From NCBI GenBank assembly GCA_016790515.1, contig JAEUOY010000130.1, positions 1-64,000 of the forward strand: a DNA stretch of 64,000 nucleotides. Reading direction: 5' to 3'. Each line of letters opens with the position of its first letter. The first letter of the stretch is position 1. This stretch comes from Burkholderiaceae bacterium (lineage in GTDB: Bacteria; Pseudomonadota; Gammaproteobacteria; Burkholderiales; Burkholderiaceae_C). Below, piece after piece: positions 53,372 to 64,000 of the stretch. The translations under genes and the position numbers were made by a program. The notes under the pieces were generated by a model. It had not been told where the DNA came from. It did not search any database and saw only the letters and a program-made list of their open reading frames with translations.

Positions 53372-53890
53372 ATGGCCATCAAGAAGTCTGACCTCTACTC
53401 CTCCCTCTGGGCCAGCTGCGACCAACTGCGCGGCGGCATGGATGCCAGCCAGTACAAGGACTACGTCCTGTTCATGCTGTTCATCAAGTACATCAGCGAC
53501 AAGTACGCCGACAGCGATGACTTCGCGCCGCCGGTGGTCATTCCCCAGGGCGCCAGCTTCAAGGACATGGTGGCGCTGAAGGGCAAGCCGGACATCGGCG
53601 ACAAGATCAACACGCAGATCATCCAGCCGTTGATCGACAAGAACGCCCGCCTGGCCCGCAGCGACTTCCCCAACTTCAACGACCCGGAGAAGCTGGGTAC
53701 CGGCGCCGAGATGGTGGAGCGGCTGGCCAACCTGATCAGCATCTTCCAGAAGCCGGAACTGGACTTCTCGAAGAACCGCGCCGAGCACGACGACATCCTC
53801 GGCGACGCCTACGAATACCTGATGCGCCACTTCGCCACCGAGAGTGGCAAGAGCAAGGGGCAGTTCTACACGCCGTCCGAGGTGAGGTGA
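53372..53890 (+). pseudogene. hsdM: Truncated type I restriction-modification DNA methyltransferase HsdM
   Basis: The 172-residue open frame matches the N-terminal domain of HsdM, with SDLYSSLWASCDQLRGGMDASQYKDYVLFML and ending AYEYLMRHFA...KGQFYTPSEV. In intact HsdM (about 500 residues) the SAM-binding and NPPF/Y catalytic motifs follow. Here the frame stops directly after PSEV, and repeats typical of a mobile-element end begin 40 bases later. No specificity or restriction subunit is seen. The gene is therefore dead as a methyltransferase. Confidence 0.92.
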
Positions 53891-53929
53891 TGCTGGACAC
53901 GCTGGCCTACGACAAGTACCCGCGATAGT

Positions 53930-54016
53930 TGTCGCAGTGTGACCACGCCTTTGAGTGCTGCTGTCGCAGCCTGCGATAGGGGCCCCCAGCGCGACCTCTT
54001 CTGAGGTACTGCGACA
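53930..54016. repeat. TGTCGCAG repeat cluster, candidate transposon end
   Basis: TGTCGCAG occurs at 53930-53937 and 53962-53969 in direct orientation, and inverted (CTGCGACA) at 54009-54016. The first copy follows the broken hsdM by 40 bases. Tn7- and Tn5053-like elements start with TGT and have several such short transposase-binding repeats inside each end. tniQ-type genes lie downstream, which fits. The opposite end is not in the window. Confidence 0.5.
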
Positions 54017-54097
54017 GAAGAAGAACCGGAGGTCTGACCTTGCCCCCGAAAACCGGATCCCTTGCTGAGTGATTCAATCCATGCAAGGAGAACGAAA

Positions 54098-54391
54098 GTG
54101 ACGAAGGCAACGAGAGCGCGGTACACGCTGGAGTTCAAGCTCGAGGCGGTGCGACTGGTCAAGGGCGGGCAGAGCATGGCGGCCACGGCCAAGATCCTGG
54201 GCATCGCCGAGCAGACGCTGCACAACTGGATCAAGGCGGACAAGGACGGTCGGCTGACGGGCGCTGGCACGAAGCCGGTGAGCCCCGAGCAGATGGAGAT
54301 CGCGCGGTTGCGCGCGGAGCTGGCGCGCGTGAAGATGGAGCGCGACATCCTGGGAAAAGCGACGGCGTACTTCGCGAAGGAGCGGGGGTGA
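54098..54391 (+). CDS. IS3-family transposase OrfA
   Basis: The 97-residue protein starts at GTG 54098 after AAGGAG (54085-54090). It has the HTH region YTLEFKLEAVRLVKGGQSMAATAKILGI and a leucine-zipper-like end with ARLRAELARVKMERDIL. It binds the IS ends. orfB begins within its last codons in the -1 frame, as in IS3 elements that make a fused transposase by frameshifting. Confidence 0.93.
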   Translation: MTKATRARYTLEFKLEAVRLVKGGQSMAATAKILGIAEQTLHNWIKADKDGRLTGAGTKPVSPEQMEIARLRAELARVKMERDILGKATAYFAKERG

Positions 54392-55269
54392 AGTACGCCT
54401 GGATCGAGCGGCACCGCCAGCACTGGCCGGTGTCGCTGGCCTGCGAGGTGCTGGGCGTGAGCGCCAGCGGATACCACGACCACAAGCTGCGATCGGCCAA
54501 ACCCCGGCGCAACCTCAGCGACGACGCGTTGCTGGTGCACATCCGTGCCATTCACGCCCAGTCGCGCGGCGAGTACGGCTGGCCACGGGTGTGGAAGGAA
54601 CTGCTCGCGCGCGGCATCCGTGTGGGCAAGGAGCGGGTGCGCAAGCTCATGAAGCTGCACGGCATCAAGGCCCGGGGCAAGCGCAAGTTCAAGGCGACCA
54701 CCGACAGCAACCATGGCTTGCCGGTGGCCGAGAACCTGCTCAACCGGGAGTTCACGCCGGCTGCACCCGATCGCGTCTGGACGAGCGACATCACCTACGT
54801 TGCCACCGAAGAGGGCTGGCTGTACCTGGCCGTGGTCATCAACCTGTTCAGCCGCCAGGTGGTGGGCTGGTCGATGAAGCCGCACATGCGCACCGAACTG
54901 GTCCTCGACGCCCTGCGCATGGCCTGGTTCCGGCGCAGGCCCGAGGCTGGTCTGATCTTCCACGCCGACCGCGGCAGCCAGTACTGCAGCGTGGAGTTCC
55001 AGAAGGCGCTGGCTGCCTACAGCATGCGCAGTTCGATGAGTCGCAAGGGCAACTGCTGGGACAATGCGCCCACCGAGAGCCTGTGGGGATCGCTGAAGGT
55101 CGGCAGGCTGCACGGGCGCCGCTTCGGGACCCGACGGGCAGCGATGGACGAGATCGTCGACTGGCTGACGTTCTACAACCACCGGCGACTGCATTCGTCG
55201 CTGGGCCACGTCAGCCCCATGAAGTTCGAGGGGCTATGGCTTGCCGCCCAGCAAAGGCAAGCCGCATGA
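54388..55269 (+). CDS. IS3-family transposase OrfB (DDE integrase)
   Basis: The 293-residue protein has the HTH_21 part (LVHIRAIHAQSRGEYGWPRV) and an rve catalytic core. Asp lies in VWTSDITYVATEEGW, Asp in IFHADRGSQYCS and Glu in NAPTESLWGSLK, the DDE triad with the IS3 spacing. It appears intact and may be active with OrfA. Confidence 0.95.
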   Translation: MKYAWIERHRQHWPVSLACEVLGVSASGYHDHKLRSAKPRRNLSDDALLVHIRAIHAQSRGEYGWPRVWKELLARGIRVGKERVRKLMKLHGIKARGKRKFKATTDSNHGLPVAENLLNREFTPAAPDRVWTSDITYVATEEGWLYLAVVINLFSRQVVGWSMKPHMRTELVLDALRMAWFRRRPEAGLIFHADRGSQYCSVEFQKALAAYSMRSSMSRKGNCWDNAPTESLWGSLKVGRLHGRRFGTRRAAMDEIVDWLTFYNHRRLHSSLGHVSPMKFEGLWLAAQQRQAA

Positions 55270-55315
55270 CAGTCTCAGCTATGGGATCCGGGAAACGCGG
55301 GCAAGGCCAGTCAAG

Positions 55316-56227
55316 ATGATTCCCCTGATACCGAAATACGCCACCATGCATTCCGTCCTCAGCGCTTGGGCTCGTTGCGGACAGGTCAACATCAAGACGC
55401 CGCAACATCGCGGCAATCGGGCCAGCTTGCTGGCCTTCGACTACACGCTAGGCGCGCATGCCCGGAAGCTGTCAGAGAGCGTGTTCAAAGGTGCCATCTG
55501 CGCGGACGACATCGTGGACTTCCACAGCCACGTGCCGATGTACGCGAGCTTTTTGACCGCGCTCCAGGCCTTCGGCTGGCGCGATCGCTTGACGGGCGGT
55601 GCGCCAGGGCGCGACACCATCGCCATGGGCATACGTCGCATGGGTGTGGTCGAGGCCGAAACTCTCAGGAAGTGTCCGACGTGTGTCCGCGAAGACCAGG
55701 TGAGATTCGGCTGCGGCCACTGGCGGCTCTTTCATCAGTGGCCGGCAGCTCGGCGCTGCGCCATCCACGGAGACGAACTGGTCACGCACTGTGCGCGGTG
55801 CAAAACGCCAGCCGTGCGTGGCAATGAGCCTTCACTGGCAGACGACCCGTGCTTGAACTGCGGGTGCGATGAGTGGGCGGCCGAACATCGCGATTCAACG
55901 ACGGGACATTGGCCGCTCATGCAGCTGATGTACCGCGCACTGAAGGGGCAAGCTCCCGAACTTTCAGCCCTCGTTCGCGCGCATCCATTGCTGCGCGCAC
56001 CGTCCTCGACCTGGGGCGACTTCGGCGCGGGCAAGGCTGATAGATCGCACCTACAGCATCTTTTCACGGCCTGGCACGTTGAGTCACCCGCGCACCTCGG
56101 CTCGGTGCTCGGCATGAACTGGAACTGGAGCGCCGATTCGAGTAGTGCTCCATCCATCGCGACCAGCCCATTCATGTTTCAGGCGGCCGTCTTGGCGGCT
56201 GAACCAGCCAGACAGTGCGCATCATGA
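55316..56227 (+). CDS. tniQ: TniQ family protein
   Basis: The 303-residue protein resembles TniQ/TnsD target-site proteins. The N-terminal segment is MIPLIPKYATMHSVLSAWAR. The zinc-finger block has CPTCVREDQVRFGCGHWRLFHQ, RRCAIHGDELVTHCARCK, and later a further CLNCGC. It begins 7 bases after the IS right end and could have lost upstream sequence or its promoter. Its TGA overlaps the ATG of the next small gene. In Tn7-like and Tn5053-like elements TniQ directs target choice. Here tniA/tniB are not in the window. A second, truncated copy lies at 56652-56933. Confidence 0.8.
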   Translation: MIPLIPKYATMHSVLSAWARCGQVNIKTPQHRGNRASLLAFDYTLGAHARKLSESVFKGAICADDIVDFHSHVPMYASFLTALQAFGWRDRLTGGAPGRDTIAMGIRRMGVVEAETLRKCPTCVREDQVRFGCGHWRLFHQWPAARRCAIHGDELVTHCARCKTPAVRGNEPSLADDPCLNCGCDEWAAEHRDSTTGHWPLMQLMYRALKGQAPELSALVRAHPLLRAPSSTWGDFGAGKADRSHLQHLFTAWHVESPAHLGSVLGMNWNWSADSSSAPSIATSPFMFQAAVLAAEPARQCAS

Positions 56228-56651: not shown

Positions 56652-56933
56652 GCAGGCTCTTGGCCCCTTCTTTCCCGGCTCTACCGTGCGCTACAGGCGC
56701 AGGCCCCCGAACTTTCAACGCTTGCCTGTGCTCATTCATTGCAGCGCTCACCCAGAACTCGACGGAACGCGACAAGGTCGCCGACGTGCGATGACACCGC
56801 CCTGGAGCACCTGTTCGCGGCGTGGGACGTGCACTCTGTGGTCGAGATGAGTTCGTTGTTGGGTGCGAGCTGGTTCCAAAGCGACGAACCGGATGGTGTG
56901 CTGTCCGGCATGATGAGTCCGCCGATTCTGTAG
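56652..56933 (+). pseudogene. C-terminal remnant of a second tniQ copy
   Basis: The open frame ending at TAG 56933 matches the C-terminal third of the tniQ gene at 55316. It has SWPLLSRLYRALQAQAPELSTL (compare HWPLMQLMYRALKGQAPELSAL), then LEHLFAAWDVHS and SLLGASW. The N-terminal and zinc-finger parts are missing. It precedes the intact small gene just as full tniQ precedes the broken small gene, which shows a tandem duplication with deletion. Confidence 0.82.
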
Positions 56934-56971
56934 GCTGCGGTTTTCGCCGCGACTCCGGCATGTCGGTAGTC

Positions 56972-57331
56972 ATGAGGAAGGCTGAGAGACCCATGGCAAC
57001 GCTTCCGGATGGCTGGATTGACGCGGATGAGTTTGCTCGTCGCCGCGGCCTACCAACGGCAAGACTCGGCGAATTGGTTTCGCGACATCGGCTCTTCTCA
57101 ACGCAGTGGAGCGGCAAGGCGTGGTACCCAGCGTTCATGGCGGATCAGACCACCGACATCCGCAGCTTGGAGGCAGTCTGTCGGCGGCTCGGCCAACTGC
57201 CGGCGGGAAGCAAGTGGCAATTCTTCGTGACCCCAAAGGCCTCGCTGGGAGGGAAGACACCTCTGGAAGCTTTGCGCGAAGGCGGTGTGACTGCGGTCAG
57301 GCTTGCGGCCCATGGCAATAGGGAGCGATAG
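56972..57331 (+). CDS. Intact copy of the small ParS/MbcA/Xre-antitoxin-like protein
   Basis: The 119-residue protein starts at ATG 56972, chosen because it matches the first copy residue for residue in length. The N-terminal part GWIDADEFARRRGLPTARL looks like a helix-turn-helix. The C-terminal part has YPAF, WQFFVTPKASLGGKTPLEAL and a final short helix, resembling the toxin-binding domain of Xre/MbcA/ParS antitoxins. No RES or other toxin gene is adjacent. It lies 59 bases before the giant primase-RT gene and may regulate it; this is inference. Confidence 0.75.
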   Translation: MRKAERPMATLPDGWIDADEFARRRGLPTARLGELVSRHRLFSTQWSGKAWYPAFMADQTTDIRSLEAVCRRLGQLPAGSKWQFFVTPKASLGGKTPLEALREGGVTAVRLAAHGNRER

Positions 57332-57390: not shown

Positions 57391-60300
57391 ATGGAAGGTC
57401 GTTACGACGTTGGCGATTTGCTCGCCAAGCTGCCGCTGGAGGACGTGGTACAGCGCCTGGGCATAGCCACCGAACGGCGAGGCGCCACGATCCAAGCCCT
57501 GTGCCCATTTCACCAAGACACCCGACCGTCGCTGAACCTTTATCCGGCCGACGGCGCATCTACCGCGCACTACCACTGCTTTGCATGCGGCGCCCATGGC
57601 AGCGCCATCGATTTGGTCAAGAAAGTGCAGGGCTTGGAATTCTTGCCGGCCGTGCAATGGCTGGCTCAGCAATTCGGTATCAGGGCGCCGAGTCGGCAGT
57701 CCAGGCAACAGGCCGCCAAGGAGGCCACCAGCGAAACAGCACTGAGGTTTGCGCTGCGAATCTACGACGAGCAGCACGACGACCAGCGATTCAAGGCTTG
57801 GTGCGCAGAGCGCGACTTCGACCGAGATTTCCTACACGAGCAAGGCCTTCGCTGCATCACGCGTGGGGTGTTGGTGGAAGCCCTTCAGTCGAAAGGCGCA
57901 GGTGAGCGAGCCGAACTAACCGACGGCTTGCAGACTCTGGGTTTGGTCAAGCGTTTGCATCAGCGATCCGCGCCAGTGCAGGGCAAGCTGAATCTGCATG
58001 ATCAATTCCAGGACTGCTTTCATGACGGTCGCGTGGTCATCCCCATTCGTGGTGGCGCGGCCAGGCATCCCGAGGTGCTTGGCTTTGCAGGCCGCGCCTT
58101 GGAGGGCGTGCCGCCCGAGGGCGTGGCCAAGTACTTGCTCACCTCGGGCTTTGAAAAGGCCAAGGTCCTCTTTAATGAACCGGCAGCCTTCGAGGCGGTG
58201 AGACAGGCCCTGAAGGCCCATCTGCCGACTAGGCTGTATCTCGTTGAAGGCTTTCTAGATGCATTGCGCCTGCAGTCCCTTGGCCTGCCCGCAGTGGCGC
58301 TAATGGGCACTAGCCTGGGAAGAGAGCCTTTGGAGAGGCTGAAGAAGCTGGCAGAGGACTCAGAATCCAGTGCTGAGTTGGCGTACTGCCTGTTTCTCGA
58401 CAACGATCCGGCCGGGTTTGGAGGCGCCGATCGGCTGGTTCGCCGGTTGCTGGACCTGCGTGGGGTGAATCTACGTTGGATCGGCATGCCCTGGCGCAGC
58501 AAACCGGCCTTGGGCAAAGACCCTGACACCTGCTTGCGGGGTCTACATGCCGGAGAGCAAGCCACCGCCTGGCTGCAGCCCTTCGACTTGCCGGCCGAGG
58601 CAGTGTTATTGGTGCAAGCCCTGGGCGGGCAGGATGCGTCCGATCTGCAGCCCGAGCGATTTGGCCACTTGATGCCGACCGTGCGTGAACGCGCCTTGTT
58701 CCGGGTCGGAATGGCGCTCAGGCGCTTGTACGGCCGCCGCCCGGCTGAGGTCGCAGCGGCGCGTTTGAAGGCCTGCGCCTGGGATTGGGCCCAGGAACTG
58801 CATGCAGAGTTGGCGGTGTCAGAGACTGGCCAGCGCGCGCTGCCGACGCGTGGCCTGTACCTCGAAGAAAAGCTCCCGCGTGTGGCGCTGGCCCGCAGCC
58901 TAGCCCACCACGGAGCGCGCCGCGGCGAGTTGCCCTGCGATGAAGAGGCATGGCAGACCCTGGGCAGCAACGCCCGCCTGTTCGACCAGATTGCCTTGGA
59001 TCGTCTGCATGCCATGATGGCTGGTGACCGAGCCTGGAAGCAAGCTGCACCCTATGACGCGGTGCACCTGCCGCGCAAGCTGACATCCGACTCGAAGGTG
59101 CTGAATGATCCGCGCCGAAAGGTAATGCCGCACCCGGCCGATCTGCAAGTGCAGCAGATAGTGCTGAATGAACTGCTCAGCCAGCGGCATGACCGGCCAA
59201 GTGCCGCGGGCCAGGCCTTTTCAGACCGCATCCCCGCTGTGCGCTGGTATGCCTCGCGTCGAGAAGTACTGGTGACGGGCTTGAGCGCGCCGTTCAATGA
59301 GCTTGACGATGAATTGGATCTGCCCAAGACCCTGAGCTTTGGTTACCAGATCGACATGGACGTTCTTGAGGGCGACCAGACCCCGTCTGACCAAGGCATG
59401 TTTCGCCCATTTGGGCAGTGCTGGCGCGAGTTCATGGCCAGCCTCGCCAAGCAGTGTCATGCAATCGGGCCCCGCGTGCATGTGCTGCGCCTCGACGCCA
59501 AGCGCTATTACGACTCGATCCAGCGCTTTGTCGTACGCGATGCGCTGCTGACTCCACTGAACCGAGCTATGGCCGAGCATGGCGTGCCCGAGGGTTTTGG
59601 GCATGTCTTGGGCTTGCCAGAAGCCAACGCGATGTCCTGGGACGTCGCATTGGAGGCCAAGCTGGAGCGCCTGCTGGTTGGGCTGATCTTTCACCACGAA
59701 TACCGTGATCCCGACGCCGAGGGACGAACTCAGCGCAGCAGCGAGCTCGTGGGTATTCCACAGGGCCCTGTGATGTCCGCTTACATCGGAACCATTGCTT
59801 TGTTTCCGGTGGACGAGGAGGCACGCCGCTTCATTCACAGCACCGCTGCGAAAGGCCCCGATGACGCTTGGCGTCCGCGCGCAGGCTATGCGCGCTATGT
59901 GGACGACATTGTGCTGTTTGCCGACAGCGAAGACTTGCTCAGACAACTGCGTCAATTGCTGCAAGCCAAGGCCGCCGAACGTTCCATCGATCTCATCCAC
60001 AAGGGCGAACGTGTGCGTGCCGGATCGCCCCAACAGGTGATGCGGCAGCTCAACGACGGGCGTGGCCTAGCGCCGTCTGTGCCAGCCTGGGATCCACCCC
60101 TTGTGGGCGACGGCGAGACCGACTACAGCCTGGGCGGCGAACTGCCCGAAGTGGATCGCCAATGTGCTCTGCAGATGCTTCGACGCGTTGCGCTGATGCA
60201 TGAGCCCAGCGGAATCGCTGGCCAGGTCAAGGCTGTCTTGAGCGCGCCCGATCTGCGCTCAGGTGACCTTGGCCTGTGCGCACGCTGGCTGTGGTGGCAG

Positions 60301-63300
60301 GTCGCCGCCACAGCAGGCAGCGTGGCGACGCCAGAGAGCTTGTGGGAGCGCTTTTGGGACTTGTGGAACGAGGTTTGCGGTGAGCATCTCTGGGCCAGTG
60401 CGTTTGCGCAGCGTGGCTACCACTGGATGTTTGCAGTGGAAGGGTTGGACAAACTGCTGGACAACCATCCGTGGCAGGAGAGCGGCAGGCTTCTGAACGA
60501 GCGCGAGAGTGATCGCAAGTTGCGCCTAGCCCTGGCCAGCCAGGTGTGCGATCCGGCATTCATAGCTGCGGTAAAGCCCGCGACGAACAGTGATCATGTG
60601 CTGCGACGTGCACGGCTGGTGGTGCGCAAGGCACATCGCCTGTCGGGCGACCTAGGCGCCAAGTTGACACTGCCACCGCAGCAGGGCGGGCCGTTGACAG
60701 CCATCGAGTGGTTGTGCCTGGCAGGCCCCGGTCTGGAACAGCAGAACACCGCCCATCACCCCTTGAACGCACTGTTGAAGCGGCCACCACAAAGGTCGAG
60801 CGAGGATGGCTTGGCGCTCGCGCATGAGGTCATTGACCAACTGGTGCAACCCACTGATGACGGCACTGCTGCGCCGCCGAACGGCACTGCTTCGGATCGC
60901 GGACTGGCGATTGACTTCGTCATCAATAGTTCGCCACCGACGGGCCGGCTTGCCACCCTAGCAAATTGGTTCCCCCATCTGCTTTCACAATCTGGCGCCA
61001 ACAAGCAACTAATCCCTCACCTGCCGACTTTCAGTGAGATTGCCCCAGCCCTGTTCGCGATCGATGCTGAGACTAGCGTAGACGGGCGCGCTCTCTATCG
61101 ATACTCGGAGCGTGCGCCAGACTCAACGTCACCAGCGCCTGGATTCGATCGGCGGTTCGCGCAGGTGGTCATGCGCGCCGAGCCGCCTTGCCCAGCGGAC
61201 GAAGTGACGGTGCGCTTTGTCGAAGTGCAGGAGTCGGAAACTCAACGGCTTGTTGTTGAGAGGAGCGCAGAGCCAAGACCCTGGACTGAACTGGCACGCG
61301 CAGCGATCAGCGATCAGCATGCCCAAGTGCCTTCCACACGCCGGGCGGTGCGCCTCTACCACGCCTTGTTGGCTATGCACCAGATGACGGTGGACGACGA
61401 GCGCCGTCTGGCCTATGTGCCCTTCCGGCCACAATTGTTCCGACAAGGCCAGGGCGACGATTTGAGGCTCTACCTGGTGGCCGATCGCGTCAAGCGCGAC
61501 CAACTGGGCGTCAATGCCTGGTACCACGACCGGGACGACCGGGTGCAATCGGTGACAGTGCCCTTTGCGGGGGCCGATCTGTGGCGCGTGGGCTGGGCGG
61601 TGGCTGATGTGCTCGGCGTGGCCGCCGATATGTCCGGCGAAACCGGTGAGCGAGACGAGCAGCTCGATGAGCTCAAGACGCCGGGTGACGAAGCCGGCAG
61701 TGCAGAAGCCACCGAAGCCCATGCCAAGCGAGAACTTGAAGCATATGTGCTGCGCCAGCAACTGCGCAAACTGCAGGGCAGCTACCTATCTTCGGCCCGA
61801 ATTGACTCAATGGGCCGTACTGAGGCCAACCTGCCACGCGCCGTGACGCGGGCGTTGGCCCTACTGCAAGACTTTCCAGCGCACCAGGAGTTGGACGCCC
61901 AGGTGCGACATCTGTTGGCGGTGGAGGCCGAAAGCCGCGCCATGGCCCTGCGCCTTGAACTTGGCAGCGGCGATGACATGCGGCATGTTTTGCACCGGGT
62001 GTTCCCCGAGGCATTGAACAGGCTGCCTCTGTGGGTTCTGCAGGGCCTGCCCCTGCGGATCCCCGATGGCCAAGCCGCGCCTCTGCGCCCGGAGCTGGGC
62101 TTAGTGCTGGCGCTGTATCAGGCGCTGTACCCCGCCAGGGTCACCGTCCCCGAGGCCAACGCGGCGCCGTTGCGCATGGCGCTGGCACTGGCCGCCACCG
62201 GAATTGGGCTTCGCGGTAGTGTGGCTGCGCTCTGGGGCTATGCACAAGCTTCGGGTGCGGCCCGCATGCCCGAACGCCTGAACTTGCCGCCTCGTTGGGC
62301 CATGGCCGATATGGAGCGCCTGGACCCGCAAGGTGACTACAGTGTCATGCGTAAGCGCCTGCTTGATGGCGATTGGCCCGCGCTAAGCAAGGCCAGCCCG
62401 TGGCAGTGGATGCTGGCCCTGATCGGCTTGCTAGATGTCGGCTTGCCGCAGGCCTTCGACATTCCGGACTTGTTGCCGGTGTACCAAGCACTGGCACAGT
62501 GGCAGAGTAAGCCAGCAGAAGGGGGCGGCGAAGAGGATCGTGCTGCGGAACAGGAGGCGATTTGGCCCTTTGATGCCTTGCCCACGTTGACGCTGCAGCG
62601 TTGCGATGATGTGTTGGCCGCTTTGCCCAAGGCGCTGTGCGCGCTTGACGCCTTGCGTGGCATGCGTGTGGTGAACGAGCAAGGCCAGAAGTTTGGCCGC
62701 CTCCCGCACACCGATGAGTTCACAGATGCCAGTGGCGCAAGTTGGCAATTGAGCACGCCTCAATTCACAAGCTTGTTTGCCAATACCTTGCCGCAGCGGG
62801 TAGTCGGCCAGCGCAAGTTGACGCTCTGGTCTGAGACACGCCGCGTTGCTGACGATGAATTACTGGCCGTCCACACGCTGGACCACAAACTTGGCAAGTG
62901 GTTCAGCACTGAATATCTGACGCCTGCGGTGCTCCAGCCCGCGCCAACGCCTAACGGCAGGCCCGGCGATACCTATATCGAGCGGGCAATTGCAGCCGCG
63001 TCGGACGTGGCGCCACCTTCCATCCCTTCGCCTAGCGAAGATGGCAAACCGGCGCAGCGCGACCAAGCTGCTGGGCCTTCCGTGCCATCCTCCCCGGCGG
63101 CCCCTGCGGTTCCTGGTGGGGTGCGGGTTGATCGCTTGGATGAGTGGCAAAGGGACTCGTGGAACAAGCGCTTCGGCGCTGACAGAAGCACCGAAGGCGA
63201 AGACCTGACCGCACGTGGTCACCTGCGTGTCGCGCTATTCCAGTGGCGGGTCTATGACAGCTACAGCCACCCCATTGCTGAGGTTGGACTGGGCGGCCTT

Positions 63301-64000
63301 CCTTTGACCCCGGCAGCGCAGAAAGCACTGCAGGCGCATCTGGACGGCGACTTCAAGGTCGTGGACAAGGCAGCCAAGCGCGGTGTGGAGTTCCATTGGC
63401 AAGACGACCGGGAGGTCTTGTCTTGGCCCGAGCATCGGCGCCGCGTCCTCCTGGGCCAGGCTTTGCGCGCTTGCCACGAACTGAAGGTGCATCTCCTTGT
63501 GCTGCCCGAGGTGTCAGTTCGGCCGGACACGGTGGAGTGGTTGAAGGGTGAGTTGCGCCGCCACCCAGGCTTGGCTGTGTTGGCAGGTACCTTCCGTCAG
63601 TTCGAGGCGACGAGCAATCACCTGGAGCACCTAAAAGAGAAATTGACCCTTCTGTGGCAGCCTGCCAAAGCCGAAGCCTTTGGCTTGCAGGGCGATGCCC
63701 CGGTCATGCAGTTTCAGCGTGACAAGAAGTACCGAGCCGTGGCGGCGCACGAGCTGTTTCGCCCTGGCGGCGATGTACTGGCGCCCCTGTACCGAGAGGA
63801 GCGGGTACTGGATGAATTGCGCCGCCACTGGACTGGCGCACAGACCTTTGATCAGATCAAAGCGCTGATGCAGGCTCTCATTCATGGCCCTCAGAAGCTG
63901 CGTTACTGTATGGAGCTAATCTGCTCCGAACTGTTCCTGCTCACCAGCCCGGCCAACCGCAGGCCCTTACTGCAAGACCTTGCCAAGGTACTAAGGCAGT
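57391..64000 (+). CDS. Giant primase-TOPRIM-reverse transcriptase-nitrilase-like protein (5' part, open at window end)
   Basis: One frame of 2,203 codons runs without a stop to the window edge, from ATG 57391 behind GGGGAG. A CHC2 zinc finger like DnaG spans about 20-90 (Cys38, His41, Cys63, Cys66 in LCPFH...YHCFACGAHG). TOPRIM follows at about 205-365 (Glu286 in LYLVEGFLDAL; Asp337 and Asp339 in LFLDNDPAG). The reverse transcriptase lies at about 640-900, with motif A LRLDAKRYYDS (Asp702), GIPQGPVMSA and YVDD (836-839). About 1,000 residues I do not recognise come next. A nitrilase-like domain from about 1945 has Glu2040 in LVLPEVSV, Lys2112/2113 and Cys2178 in LICSELF. RT-nitrilase fusions occur in defence RTs of the UG/DRT families. 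With tniQ genes and broken R-M genes nearby, anti-phage defence is the leading hypothesis. Confidence 0.88.
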   Translation, partial: MEGRYDVGDLLAKLPLEDVVQRLGIATERRGATIQALCPFHQDTRPSLNLYPADGASTAHYHCFACGAHGSAIDLVKKVQGLEFLPAVQWLAQQFGIRAPSRQSRQQAAKEATSETALRFALRIYDEQHDDQRFKAWCAERDFDRDFLHEQGLRCITRGVLVEALQSKGAGERAELTDGLQTLGLVKRLHQRSAPVQGKLNLHDQFQDCFHDGRVVIPIRGGAARHPEVLGFAGRALEGVPPEGVAKYLLTSGFEKAKVLFNEPAAFEAVRQALKAHLPTRLYLVEGFLDALRLQSLGLPAVALMGTSLGREPLERLKKLAEDSESSAELAYCLFLDNDPAGFGGADRLVRRLLDLRGVNLRWIGMPWRSKPALGKDPDTCLRGLHAGEQATAWLQPFDLPAEAVLLVQALGGQDASDLQPERFGHLMPTVRERALFRVGMALRRLYGRRPAEVAAARLKACAWDWAQELHAELAVSETGQRALPTRGLYLEEKLPRVALARSLAHHGARRGELPCDEEAWQTLGSNARLFDQIALDRLHAMMAGDRAWKQAAPYDAVHLPRKLTSDSKVLNDPRRKVMPHPADLQVQQIVLNELLSQRHDRPSAAGQAFSDRIPAVRWYASRREVLVTGLSAPFNELDDELDLPKTLSFGYQIDMDVLEGDQTPSDQGMFRPFGQCWREFMASLAKQCHAIGPRVHVLRLDAKRYYDSIQRFVVRDALLTPLNRAMAEHGVPEGFGHVLGLPEANAMSWDVALEAKLERLLVGLIFHHEYRDPDAEGRTQRSSELVGIPQGPVMSAYIGTIALFPVDEEARRFIHSTAAKGPDDAWRPRAGYARYVDDIVLFADSEDLLRQLRQLLQAKAAERSIDLIHKGERVRAGSPQQVMRQLNDGRGLAPSVPAWDPPLVGDGETDYSLGGELPEVDRQCALQMLRRVALMHEPSGIAGQVKAVLSAPDLRSGDLGLCARWLWWQVAATAGSVATPESLWERFWDLWNEVCGEHLWASAFAQRGYHWMFAVEGLDKLLDNHPWQESGRLLNERESDRKLRLALASQVCDPAFIAAVKPATNSDHVLRRARLVVRKAHRLSGDLGAKLTLPPQQGGPLTAIEWLCLAGPGLEQQNTAHHPLNALLKRPPQRSSEDGLALAHEVIDQLVQPTDDGTAAPPNGTASDRGLAIDFVINSSPPTGRLATLANWFPHLLSQSGANKQLIPHLPTFSEIAPALFAIDAETSVDGRALYRYSERAPDSTSPAPGFDRRFAQVVMRAEPPCPADEVTVRFVEVQESETQRLVVERSAEPRPWTELARAAISDQHAQVPSTRRAVRLYHALLAMHQMTVDDERRLAYVPFRPQLFRQGQGDDLRLYLVADRVKRDQLGVNAWYHDRDDRVQSVTVPFAGADLWRVGWAVADVLGVAADMSGETGERDEQLDELKTPGDEAGSAEATEAHAKRELEAYVLRQQLRKLQGSYLSSARIDSMGRTEANLPRAVTRALALLQDFPAHQELDAQVRHLLAVEAESRAMALRLELGSGDDMRHVLHRVFPEALNRLPLWVLQGLPLRIPDGQAAPLRPELGLVLALYQALYPARVTVPEANAAPLRMALALAATGIGLRGSVAALWGYAQASGAARMPERLNLPPRWAMADMERLDPQGDYSVMRKRLLDGDWPALSKASPWQWMLALIGLLDVGLPQAFDIPDLLPVYQALAQWQSKPAEGGGEEDRAAEQEAIWPFDALPTLTLQRCDDVLAALPKALCALDALRGMRVVNEQGQKFGRLPHTDEFTDASGASWQLSTPQFTSLFANTLPQRVVGQRKLTLWSETRRVADDELLAVHTLDHKLGKWFSTEYLTPAVLQPAPTPNGRPGDTYIERAIAAASDVAPPSIPSPSEDGKPAQRDQAAGPSVPSSPAAPAVPGGVRVDRLDEWQRDSWNKRFGADRSTEGEDLTARGHLRVALFQWRVYDSYSHPIAEVGLGGLPLTPAAQKALQAHLDGDFKVVDKAAKRGVEFHWQDDREVLSWPEHRRRVLLGQALRACHELKVHLLVLPEVSVRPDTVEWLKGELRRHPGLAVLAGTFRQFEATSNHLEHLKEKLTLLWQPAKAEAFGLQGDAPVMQFQRDKKYRAVAAHELFRPGGDVLAPLYREERVLDELRRHWTGAQTFDQIKALMQALIHGPQKLRYCMELICSELFLLTSPANRRPLLQDLAKVLRQ

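Follow-up and report, generated by a model that had tools for sequence, protein, structure and literature searches.

A UG29 reverse transcriptase carrying DnaG-type primase and nitrilase-fold domains as a possible single-gene, DRT1-like anti-phage system

The 64,000-nt window analysed here, from contig JAEUOY010000130.1 of a Burkholderiaceae bacterium, ends within a gene whose product, judged from its sequence, is a member of the UG29 group of reverse transcriptases (RTs). Along the chain, a DnaG-type primase is followed by the RT, a helical region, and a nitrilase, with conserved catalytic residues. We assign a probability of roughly one half to the reading that this gene alone makes up a class 3 anti-phage system resembling DRT1, in which a self-primed RT adduct restrains the nitrilase until a phage factor frees it.

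The UG29 gene, its relatives, and its neighborhood

The gene forms a single open frame of 2203 codons at 57391–64000 of the forward strand, in agreement with the more than 2,200 uninterrupted codons reported in the initial annotation. The contig extends past the window end to 66593, and following it located the stop codon at contig positions 64999–65001; the full protein is thus 2536 aa, of which residues 1–2203 lie in the window. The PADLOC model RT_UG29 (PDLC03767) has 2280 positions, more than any other RT model that PADLOC listed here, and it aligned over practically its full length (profile positions 3–2278, protein residues 4–2515, 2690.2 bits). A 2023 library already contained a full-length model of the group, so the novelty is lower than the initial annotation implied. 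In the literature searched, we found neither a described mechanism for UG29 nor a phage challenge of any of its members. Class 3 UG/Abi RTs are defined by an RT joined, within a single polypeptide, to a nitrilase or a phosphohydrolase domain (PMC13275509), and the predicted folds and conserved residues indicate an RT and a nitrilase domain in the present chain.

The relatives were collected with two peptide patterns located just before the RT, so that the 49 genome loci obtained are a lower bound and the conservation at residues 649–656 and 671–678 is partly due to the selection itself. The same layout was present in one uninterrupted frame in 40 of the 49 loci, as well as in a 59% identical copy on the Polaromonas plasmid pPNAP05; a distant copy was present on a Sphingomonas plasmid. 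The alignment used to count conservation has 43 proteins, which come from several phyla, share the same single frame, and form 39 clusters at 90% identity: 40 related proteins longer than 2300 aa, the window protein, L024, and L025, the last being cut by the start of its own circular record. Partial or split proteins were excluded (L037, L039, L045, L053, L057, L062, L067, L071, and L074; the loci of L039, L057, L071, and L074 are interrupted or truncated), and L078 and L079, carrying the same DNA as L036 and L040, were removed after alignment. Alignments A2 and A3 additionally omitted L068, which is 99.5% like L059. Relatives occur in Simplicispira and Pseudomonas, and in Pseudoalteromonas a natural two-gene split of the UG29 protein was observed.

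A search of 398 genomes with RT_UG29 matched 379 of them; however, the matches listed after the window's own cover only about profile positions 3–473, the DnaG part, and therefore say little about the spread of the group. Alignment A1, made without the primase, was used after this result. Among the viral contigs, there was no match for the whole protein, and A1 gave a single short match, L076, confined to the RT part.

No conserved flank was found within 300 bp of the gene. Identity fell outside the gene in nine aligned sequences (the window and eight near relatives), with values of 0.10–0.48 at 50–300 bp upstream across the eight comparisons, and no Rfam family matched at the gathering score. 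The drop in flank identity and the lack of an Rfam match tentatively speak against a close-by non-coding RNA partner of the DRT2/3/9 kind, though not against a distant or fast-changing one. A small upstream ORF (169 aa, 56822–57331, forward strand; weak Pfam match, 0.0027) had no tblastn relative at E up to 0.01 in loci L024 and later, and probably lies outside the system. The downstream ORF (190 aa, contig 65190–65762) has one likely membrane helix, judged by eye, and no PADLOC, Pfam, or plasmid match; tblastn hit no other UG29 locus, the sole match (L077) being the same place refetched. Both ORFs were rejected as conserved partners. In some relatives, Drt1b-like or 3′-5′ exonuclease genes are neighbors, the exonuclease gene being alphaproteobacterial, and in L052 (1.1e-40) and L053 (7.8e-49) a Drt1b-like gene overlaps the 3′ end of the UG29 gene. 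These neighbors come from a scan confined to the UG29 loci. Of 616 mechanical ORFs, 112 were selected by script and 74 of these were scanned, likely shadow ORFs being left out by eye; 25 of the 118 matched PADLOC families were listed.

The primase and reverse transcriptase domains

The CHC2 zinc-binding domain of DnaG type occupies 57391–57693 (residues 1–101; Pfam CHC2, Zn_ribbon_DnaG, 8.3e-18) and is followed by the DnaG RNA-polymerase (TOPRIM) domain at 57718–58821 (residues ~110–477; Toprim_2, 3.2e-6), which carries E286, D290, D337, D339, and D377-P378. The RT domain lies at 58864–60075 (residues ~492–895; RVT_1, 4.1e-7). The zinc ligands Cys38, His41, Cys63, and Cys66, the TOPRIM residues Glu286, Asp337, and Asp339, and the RT residues Asp702 and YVDD (836–839) were identical in all 43 aligned proteins, the window protein included, and D377 was likewise unchanged in 43 of 43. 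The primase and RT domains proposed in the initial annotation, with the active-site positions it had named, were thus borne out by Pfam, by the predicted folds, and by conservation; in the primase, the CHC2 ligands, the TOPRIM Glu and Asp-x-Asp, and the fold all agree with DnaG.

The fold match to DnaG stops at residue 476, and that to RT starts at 492–494. Since only about 15 residues separate them, there is no space for a separate helicase-binding domain; unlike in bacterial DnaG, the RT occupies the place of the helicase-binding tail. The protein scored 145.5 bits against the NCBIfam dnaG model, far under the cut-off of 283.6, and a housekeeping primase was rejected on this basis. Two other carriers, whose genomes have a listed completeness of 100%, encode a separate DnaG; a search of the incomplete assembly to which the window belongs found none. 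We also rejected the TOPRIM as an OLD-like nuclease or a retron-Eco2-type effector, given the CHC2 domain, D377-P378, a weak match to the DnaG N-subdomain, and DnaG ranking first in the fold comparison. Retron-Eco2, like UG29, is reported to have an RT and a TOPRIM fold on a single polypeptide; however, in Retron-Eco2 the TOPRIM is the effector and works with an ncRNA, whereas in UG29 it belongs to a DnaG primase that includes a CHC2 zinc domain, and the nitrilase is the likely effector.

The nitrilase-fold domain, the post-RT loop, and the kinship with DRT1

Behind the RT lies a low-confidence linker (60055–60156, residues 889–922; pLDDT below 50 at residues 891–919), and then a long, mostly helical middle region (60157–62880, residues ~923–1830) with a small beta-sheet part at its end; residues 1191 to ~1350 fall between the two structure models. 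The nitrilase-fold domain begins at 63193, reaches the window end at 64000, and continues past it (residues ~1935–2351; E2040, K2112, C2178, E2180). No sequence library searched named this domain: Pfam, searched with an E limit of 1, gave no nitrilase family, and when PDB chains were searched with a sequence profile built from the C-terminal half, no nitrilase was among the matches. Its identity was confirmed by fold alone, in a comparison of predicted structures, and the predicted fold together with the Glu-Lys-Cys triad places it in the nitrilase superfamily; the model of the second half has a pTM of 0.57, which leaves domain placement within that half unsure. The DRT1 structure 9YFD did not appear among the Foldseek or VIA matches listed, an absence without weight because the library searched closes in April 2026. 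Glu2040, Cys2178, and E2180 were each conserved in 43/43. For the lysine, two adjacent positions had been put forward; 2112 is the candidate catalytic residue, because all 43 proteins have K there, whereas at 2113 K is present in 34 and replaced by R in the other 9.

The likeness to DRT1 (PDB 9YFD) lies in the order of RT, helical region, and nitrilase and in the nitrilase Glu-Lys-Cys. However, DRT1 proteins are ~1,230–1,300 aa long and have no primase, whereas the UG29 protein has 2536 aa and includes one. In hhalign, the RT profile matched DRT1 with 97.5% probability (8.9e-12) and the nitrilase more weakly (67%, 5.1e-5); the Drt1a profile, of 1176 positions, covered only residues 680–848 (29.8 bits). 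The kinship to defense RTs suggested by the initial annotation is supported by the RT_UG29 classification, by the RT profile and, weakly, the nitrilase profile, and by the Drt1b-like overlaps in two relatives. Its statement that some UG groups carry primase-like domains was right in kind but for another primase family: according to the passages available, UG10/DRT7 is associated with an AE_Prim_S_like domain (PMC8934634). DRT7 resembles UG29 in that a single polypeptide carries both a primase-type and an RT domain; however, by its name that primase is of the archaeal-eukaryotic and not the DnaG/TOPRIM type, and the same passages name no nitrilase.

DRT1 is reported to prime without a template on S402, in an unresolved loop directly after the RT, and to require both RT and nitrilase for immunity; S402 is not conserved among other class 3 DRTs (PMC13275509). 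In UG29 proteins, the low-confidence loop at a comparable position carries a conserved Ser/Tyr: at residue 896 (codon 60076–60078), a 40-row alignment has S in 35 rows and Y in the other 5, and a second alignment of 43 rows has S in 38, Y in 4, and E in 1. The Pseudomonas relatives L038, L044, and L046 are among those with Tyr. We consider S896 a candidate priming residue equivalent to S402 by position only, as the profile alignment ends before both loops.

A proposed mechanism and its alternatives

In the mechanism that we favor, the RT of an uninfected cell would prime DNA synthesis on a side chain of its own, with S896 the most likely site (a Tyr in some relatives), and, like DRT1, would produce short DNA without a template. 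The resulting adduct would determine how the nitrilase oligomerizes and hold it in check; upon infection, a phage replication factor would perturb the adduct, and the released nitrilase would attack an essential metabolite and stop the cell. The primase would probably lay short RNA primers on the single-stranded product, with the same chain making the duplex, a role assigned by analogy to the PrimPol-RT fusion DRT7 as far as its partial description goes. A more elaborate form, in which the RT starts on Ser/Tyr 896, DnaG primes the strand, the RT makes the duplex, and gain or loss of the duplex during infection switches the nitrilase, is possible but on balance unlikely. If true, it would be, as far as found, the first TOPRIM (bacterial-type) primase coupled in cis to an RT, and would fuse the DRT7 and DRT1 modes.

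It is doubtful that the primase instead primes the RT directly on single-stranded nucleic acid, whether foreign or of the host, with DnaG laying RNA primers on phage ssDNA, the RT extending them, and the product, not an adduct, controlling the nitrilase. The unchanged zinc ligands and acidic residues of the primase and the abutting folds, with no helicase-binding domain between them, are in line with this; however, the conserved Ser/Tyr of the post-RT loop and the kinship with protein-primed DRT1 are not. Primases bind parts of the replisome, which counts in favor of a primase that is chiefly a sensor, docking on the replication forks or the helicase of the phage, with its own catalysis secondary. 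The escape mutants of DRT1 point the same way, as they fall in the phage T4 helicase Dda (PMC13275509), but a pure sensor needs no invariant CHC2 ligands, E286, D337, D339, and D377, and we regard this reading as improbable. That the protein serves the replication or upkeep of plasmids and mobile elements, and not defense, is more improbable still: the two plasmid copies agree with it, but the separate DnaG in the two complete carriers does not, and we know of no replication role that fits the nitrilase or the Drt1b-like neighbors. Although the relative L053 has the protein divided into two genes, a fusion of distinct genes by misassembly or frameshift, named beforehand as a possible refutation, is refuted by the single frame shared among the relatives and has next to no probability.

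UG29 combines three enzymes in a way whose mechanism is not described in the literature searched. Given their conservation, E286, YVDD, S896, and C2178 offer clean sites for separation-of-function mutants, and the Pseudoalteromonas split should allow the primase-RT and nitrilase halves to be purified separately. The system bears on whether a DnaG-type primase can feed an RT in immunity, and on the role of the nitrilase in class 3 systems.

Gene structure and classification

The frame of the giant UG29 protein starts with the ATG at 57391 on the forward strand and runs without interruption to the end of the window, as the initial annotation had stated. Extension along the contig (C93, which ends at 66593) located the stop codon at 64999–65001, giving a protein of 2536 aa. 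The source assembly comprises 5.0 Mb in 176 contigs and is 82% complete.

The PADLOC model RT_UG29 spanned the whole window protein (2690 bits, profile positions 3–2278 of 2280), and the runner-up RT model, RT_UG19, scored 37 bits. CHC2, RVT_1 and Toprim_2 exceeded the Pfam cut-offs, no Pfam match to the nitrilase family was found in the protein, and the NCBIfam dnaG score (145.5 bits) was below its cut-off of 283.6. Taken together, these profile matches identify the protein as a UG29 reverse transcriptase. The initial observation was real and correctly read, and the protein is a member of an already catalogued group, present in the 2023 library and reportedly named by Mestre et al. in 2022. 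Our literature search found no paper about UG29; the searched passages of papers on RTs combined with nitrilase, DnaG or primase did not mention it, and none of these papers treated its architecture in the text available. The 550-aa RTasDnaG-like model of PADLOC matched residues 1162–2515 (window 60874 onward), which reach almost to the C terminus, as well as the primase part; this model may contain pieces from both UG29 ends.

Upstream of the gene, the interval 53372–55269 contains an HsdM N-terminal fragment (172 aa) and, less than 200 bp after it, two paired transposase ORFs with IS3-like domains; the type I methylase gene seems truncated there. A TniQ-like ORF slightly below the Pfam cut-off (55241–56227) lies between this pair and the UG29 gene. 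The same assembly contains a second RT (contig C87, 79462–80232; RVT_1 119 bits, in a frame of 576 aa). DNAG_N had no match in this assembly, probably because of its incompleteness.

In eight comparisons of the window with near relatives, identity was 0.62–0.86 within the gene's first 50 bp, 0.38–0.66 in the last 50 bp upstream and 0.10–0.48 further upstream, to 300 bp. Downstream, it dropped at the stop codon in the nearest relatives too, and in more distant ones the gene end itself was already poorly conserved. Because flank identity was low and Rfam gave no match at gathering score in 11.6 kb, these data make an ncRNA partner close to the gene less likely.

Active-site residues and relation to DRT1

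Conservation was counted in 43 aligned proteins including that of the window (relatives 21–80% identical; 39 clusters at 90%), which was a fair test since most residues had been picked from a single sequence without an alignment. The proposed CHC2 ligands (C38, H41, C63, C66), TOPRIM residues (E286, D337, D339) and RT motifs (D702 and YVDD, Y836, V837, D838, D839) were identical in 43/43, as were D377 and P378 of the primase; position 379 was Asp in 37 proteins and Asn in the other 6. In the proposed nitrilase set, E2040, K2112 and C2178 were likewise invariant, together with E2180, and only the alternative lysine at 2113 did not hold (K in 34, R in 9). For comparison, 54 columns were invariant in the 1190-residue N-terminal alignment (n = 40) and 40 in the C-terminal one (n = 39).

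The DRT1 reference set consisted of four full-length relatives from the 7 of 398 genomes matched by the Drt1a profile at 1e-60. The hhalign comparison linked the DRT1 and UG29 RTs (97.5%, 8.9e-12); the link between the two nitrilases was weak (67%, 5.1e-5). According to the passages available on DRT1, its immunity requires both RT and nitrilase, it forms quiescent filaments dependent on DNA, its activation requires a phage helicase, and drt1b adjoins about 18% of drt1 genes (PMC13275509).

The primer residue of protein-primed systems is described, in the passages available, as Ser in DRT1 (PMC13275509) and Tyr in DRT4 and DRT9 (PMC13213688, PMC13314766). In UG29, the loop 891–919 (pLDDT below 50) contains S896, a position that is Ser in 35 of 40 rows and Tyr in the other 5; in a second alignment (n = 43) it is Ser in 38, Tyr in 4 and Glu in 1. 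We predict S896 to be the priming residue of the UG29 RT. It lies 57 residues past D839; DRT1 S402, within a T-S-S run, lies 77 past D325 as counted on the alignment. Conservation of S402 is described as not extending to the other class 3 DRTs (PMC13275509).

Distribution and neighbouring genes

When the aligned non-primase part served as query, one scan of 84,980 genomes yielded at least 49 loci, 40 of which encoded an uninterrupted protein of more than 2300 aa; artificial joining of separate genes by misassembly or frameshift was thereby dismissed. Full-length UG29 was found on the Polaromonas plasmid pPNAP05 (59% identical), and a further copy on a Sphingomonas aerolata plasmid (29%). Only 3 of 199 relatives of the window's genome matched, its own genome counted; therefore, the spread among them is patchy. 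In a quick tree built from the N-terminal halves of 40 proteins, in which many long branches make the deep order unsure, the four Bacillota grouped together. Sphaerotilaceae, Burkholderiaceae, Methylococcaceae and Pseudomonadaceae were intermixed in one clade of seven (SH-aLRT 100), which suggests transfer of the gene, if only tentatively.

Several copies were broken or cut. The Aureimonas copy (L071:813–8549) occupies one frame with in-frame TAG codons at 2064 and 6069, one between the primase and RT parts and one ahead of the nitrilase part, reflecting decay or a natural split. A Stenotrophomonas metagenome copy (L039:8322–15832) is in five pieces, and a Lachnospiraceae copy (L074:4357–7152) is without the middle, residues about 675–2217. 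A fragment 72.6% identical to residues 773–1216, in a record titled Cyanobacteria phage AS-1 contig_3 (DQ115810.1), adjoins an ISL3-type transposase, judged by eye; the record looks like bacterial DNA carrying a phage name. In a Rhodoferax metagenome genome (L027:15952–17785), the UG29 end precedes opposite-strand L17-like and RNA-polymerase-alpha-like genes (identified by eye), and the site may be an insertion spot.

Two loci, Psychromonas L052 and Pseudoalteromonas L053, have a Drt1b-like gene that overlaps UG29 at its 3' end. In the latter, the chain is split into a primase-RT gene (profile 3–1072) and a helical-nitrilase gene (1095–2264) sharing an ATGA overlap, with the Drt1b-like gene next; the three form an overlapping operon (L053:8342–16645). 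Of the 11 loci fetched from Alphaproteobacteria, 9 have a DEDDh 3'-5' exonuclease gene adjoining UG29. It lies upstream of UG29 in L061, and downstream of it in L058, L059, L064, L066, L068, L070, L073 and L025, the last called from the annotation of its continuation, L088; none was found at L065 and L071. The L066 exonuclease matched the NCBIfam 3'-5' exonuclease PRK09182. Among the matches listed for 74 selected neighbour ORFs, type I and IV restriction, Avs, JetA and HerA families occurred as single matches.

Possible role of the primase

The primase may make second-strand primers. This idea follows from DRT7, an RT with a primase-polymerase, whose product is given as palindromic, A/T-rich, duplex-like DNA in a review table citing preprints (PMC13213688; see also PMC13314766, PMC13174585); the DRT7 primase-polymerase belongs to another family than the UG29 primase. 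The domain may instead serve mainly as a replication sensor, with catalysis secondary; this is the less likely of the two readings, and the present data fit both. No test of the three-enzyme logic of the UG29 group was found in the literature; the relatives compared here indicate the exact residues and the natural splits with which it can be probed.
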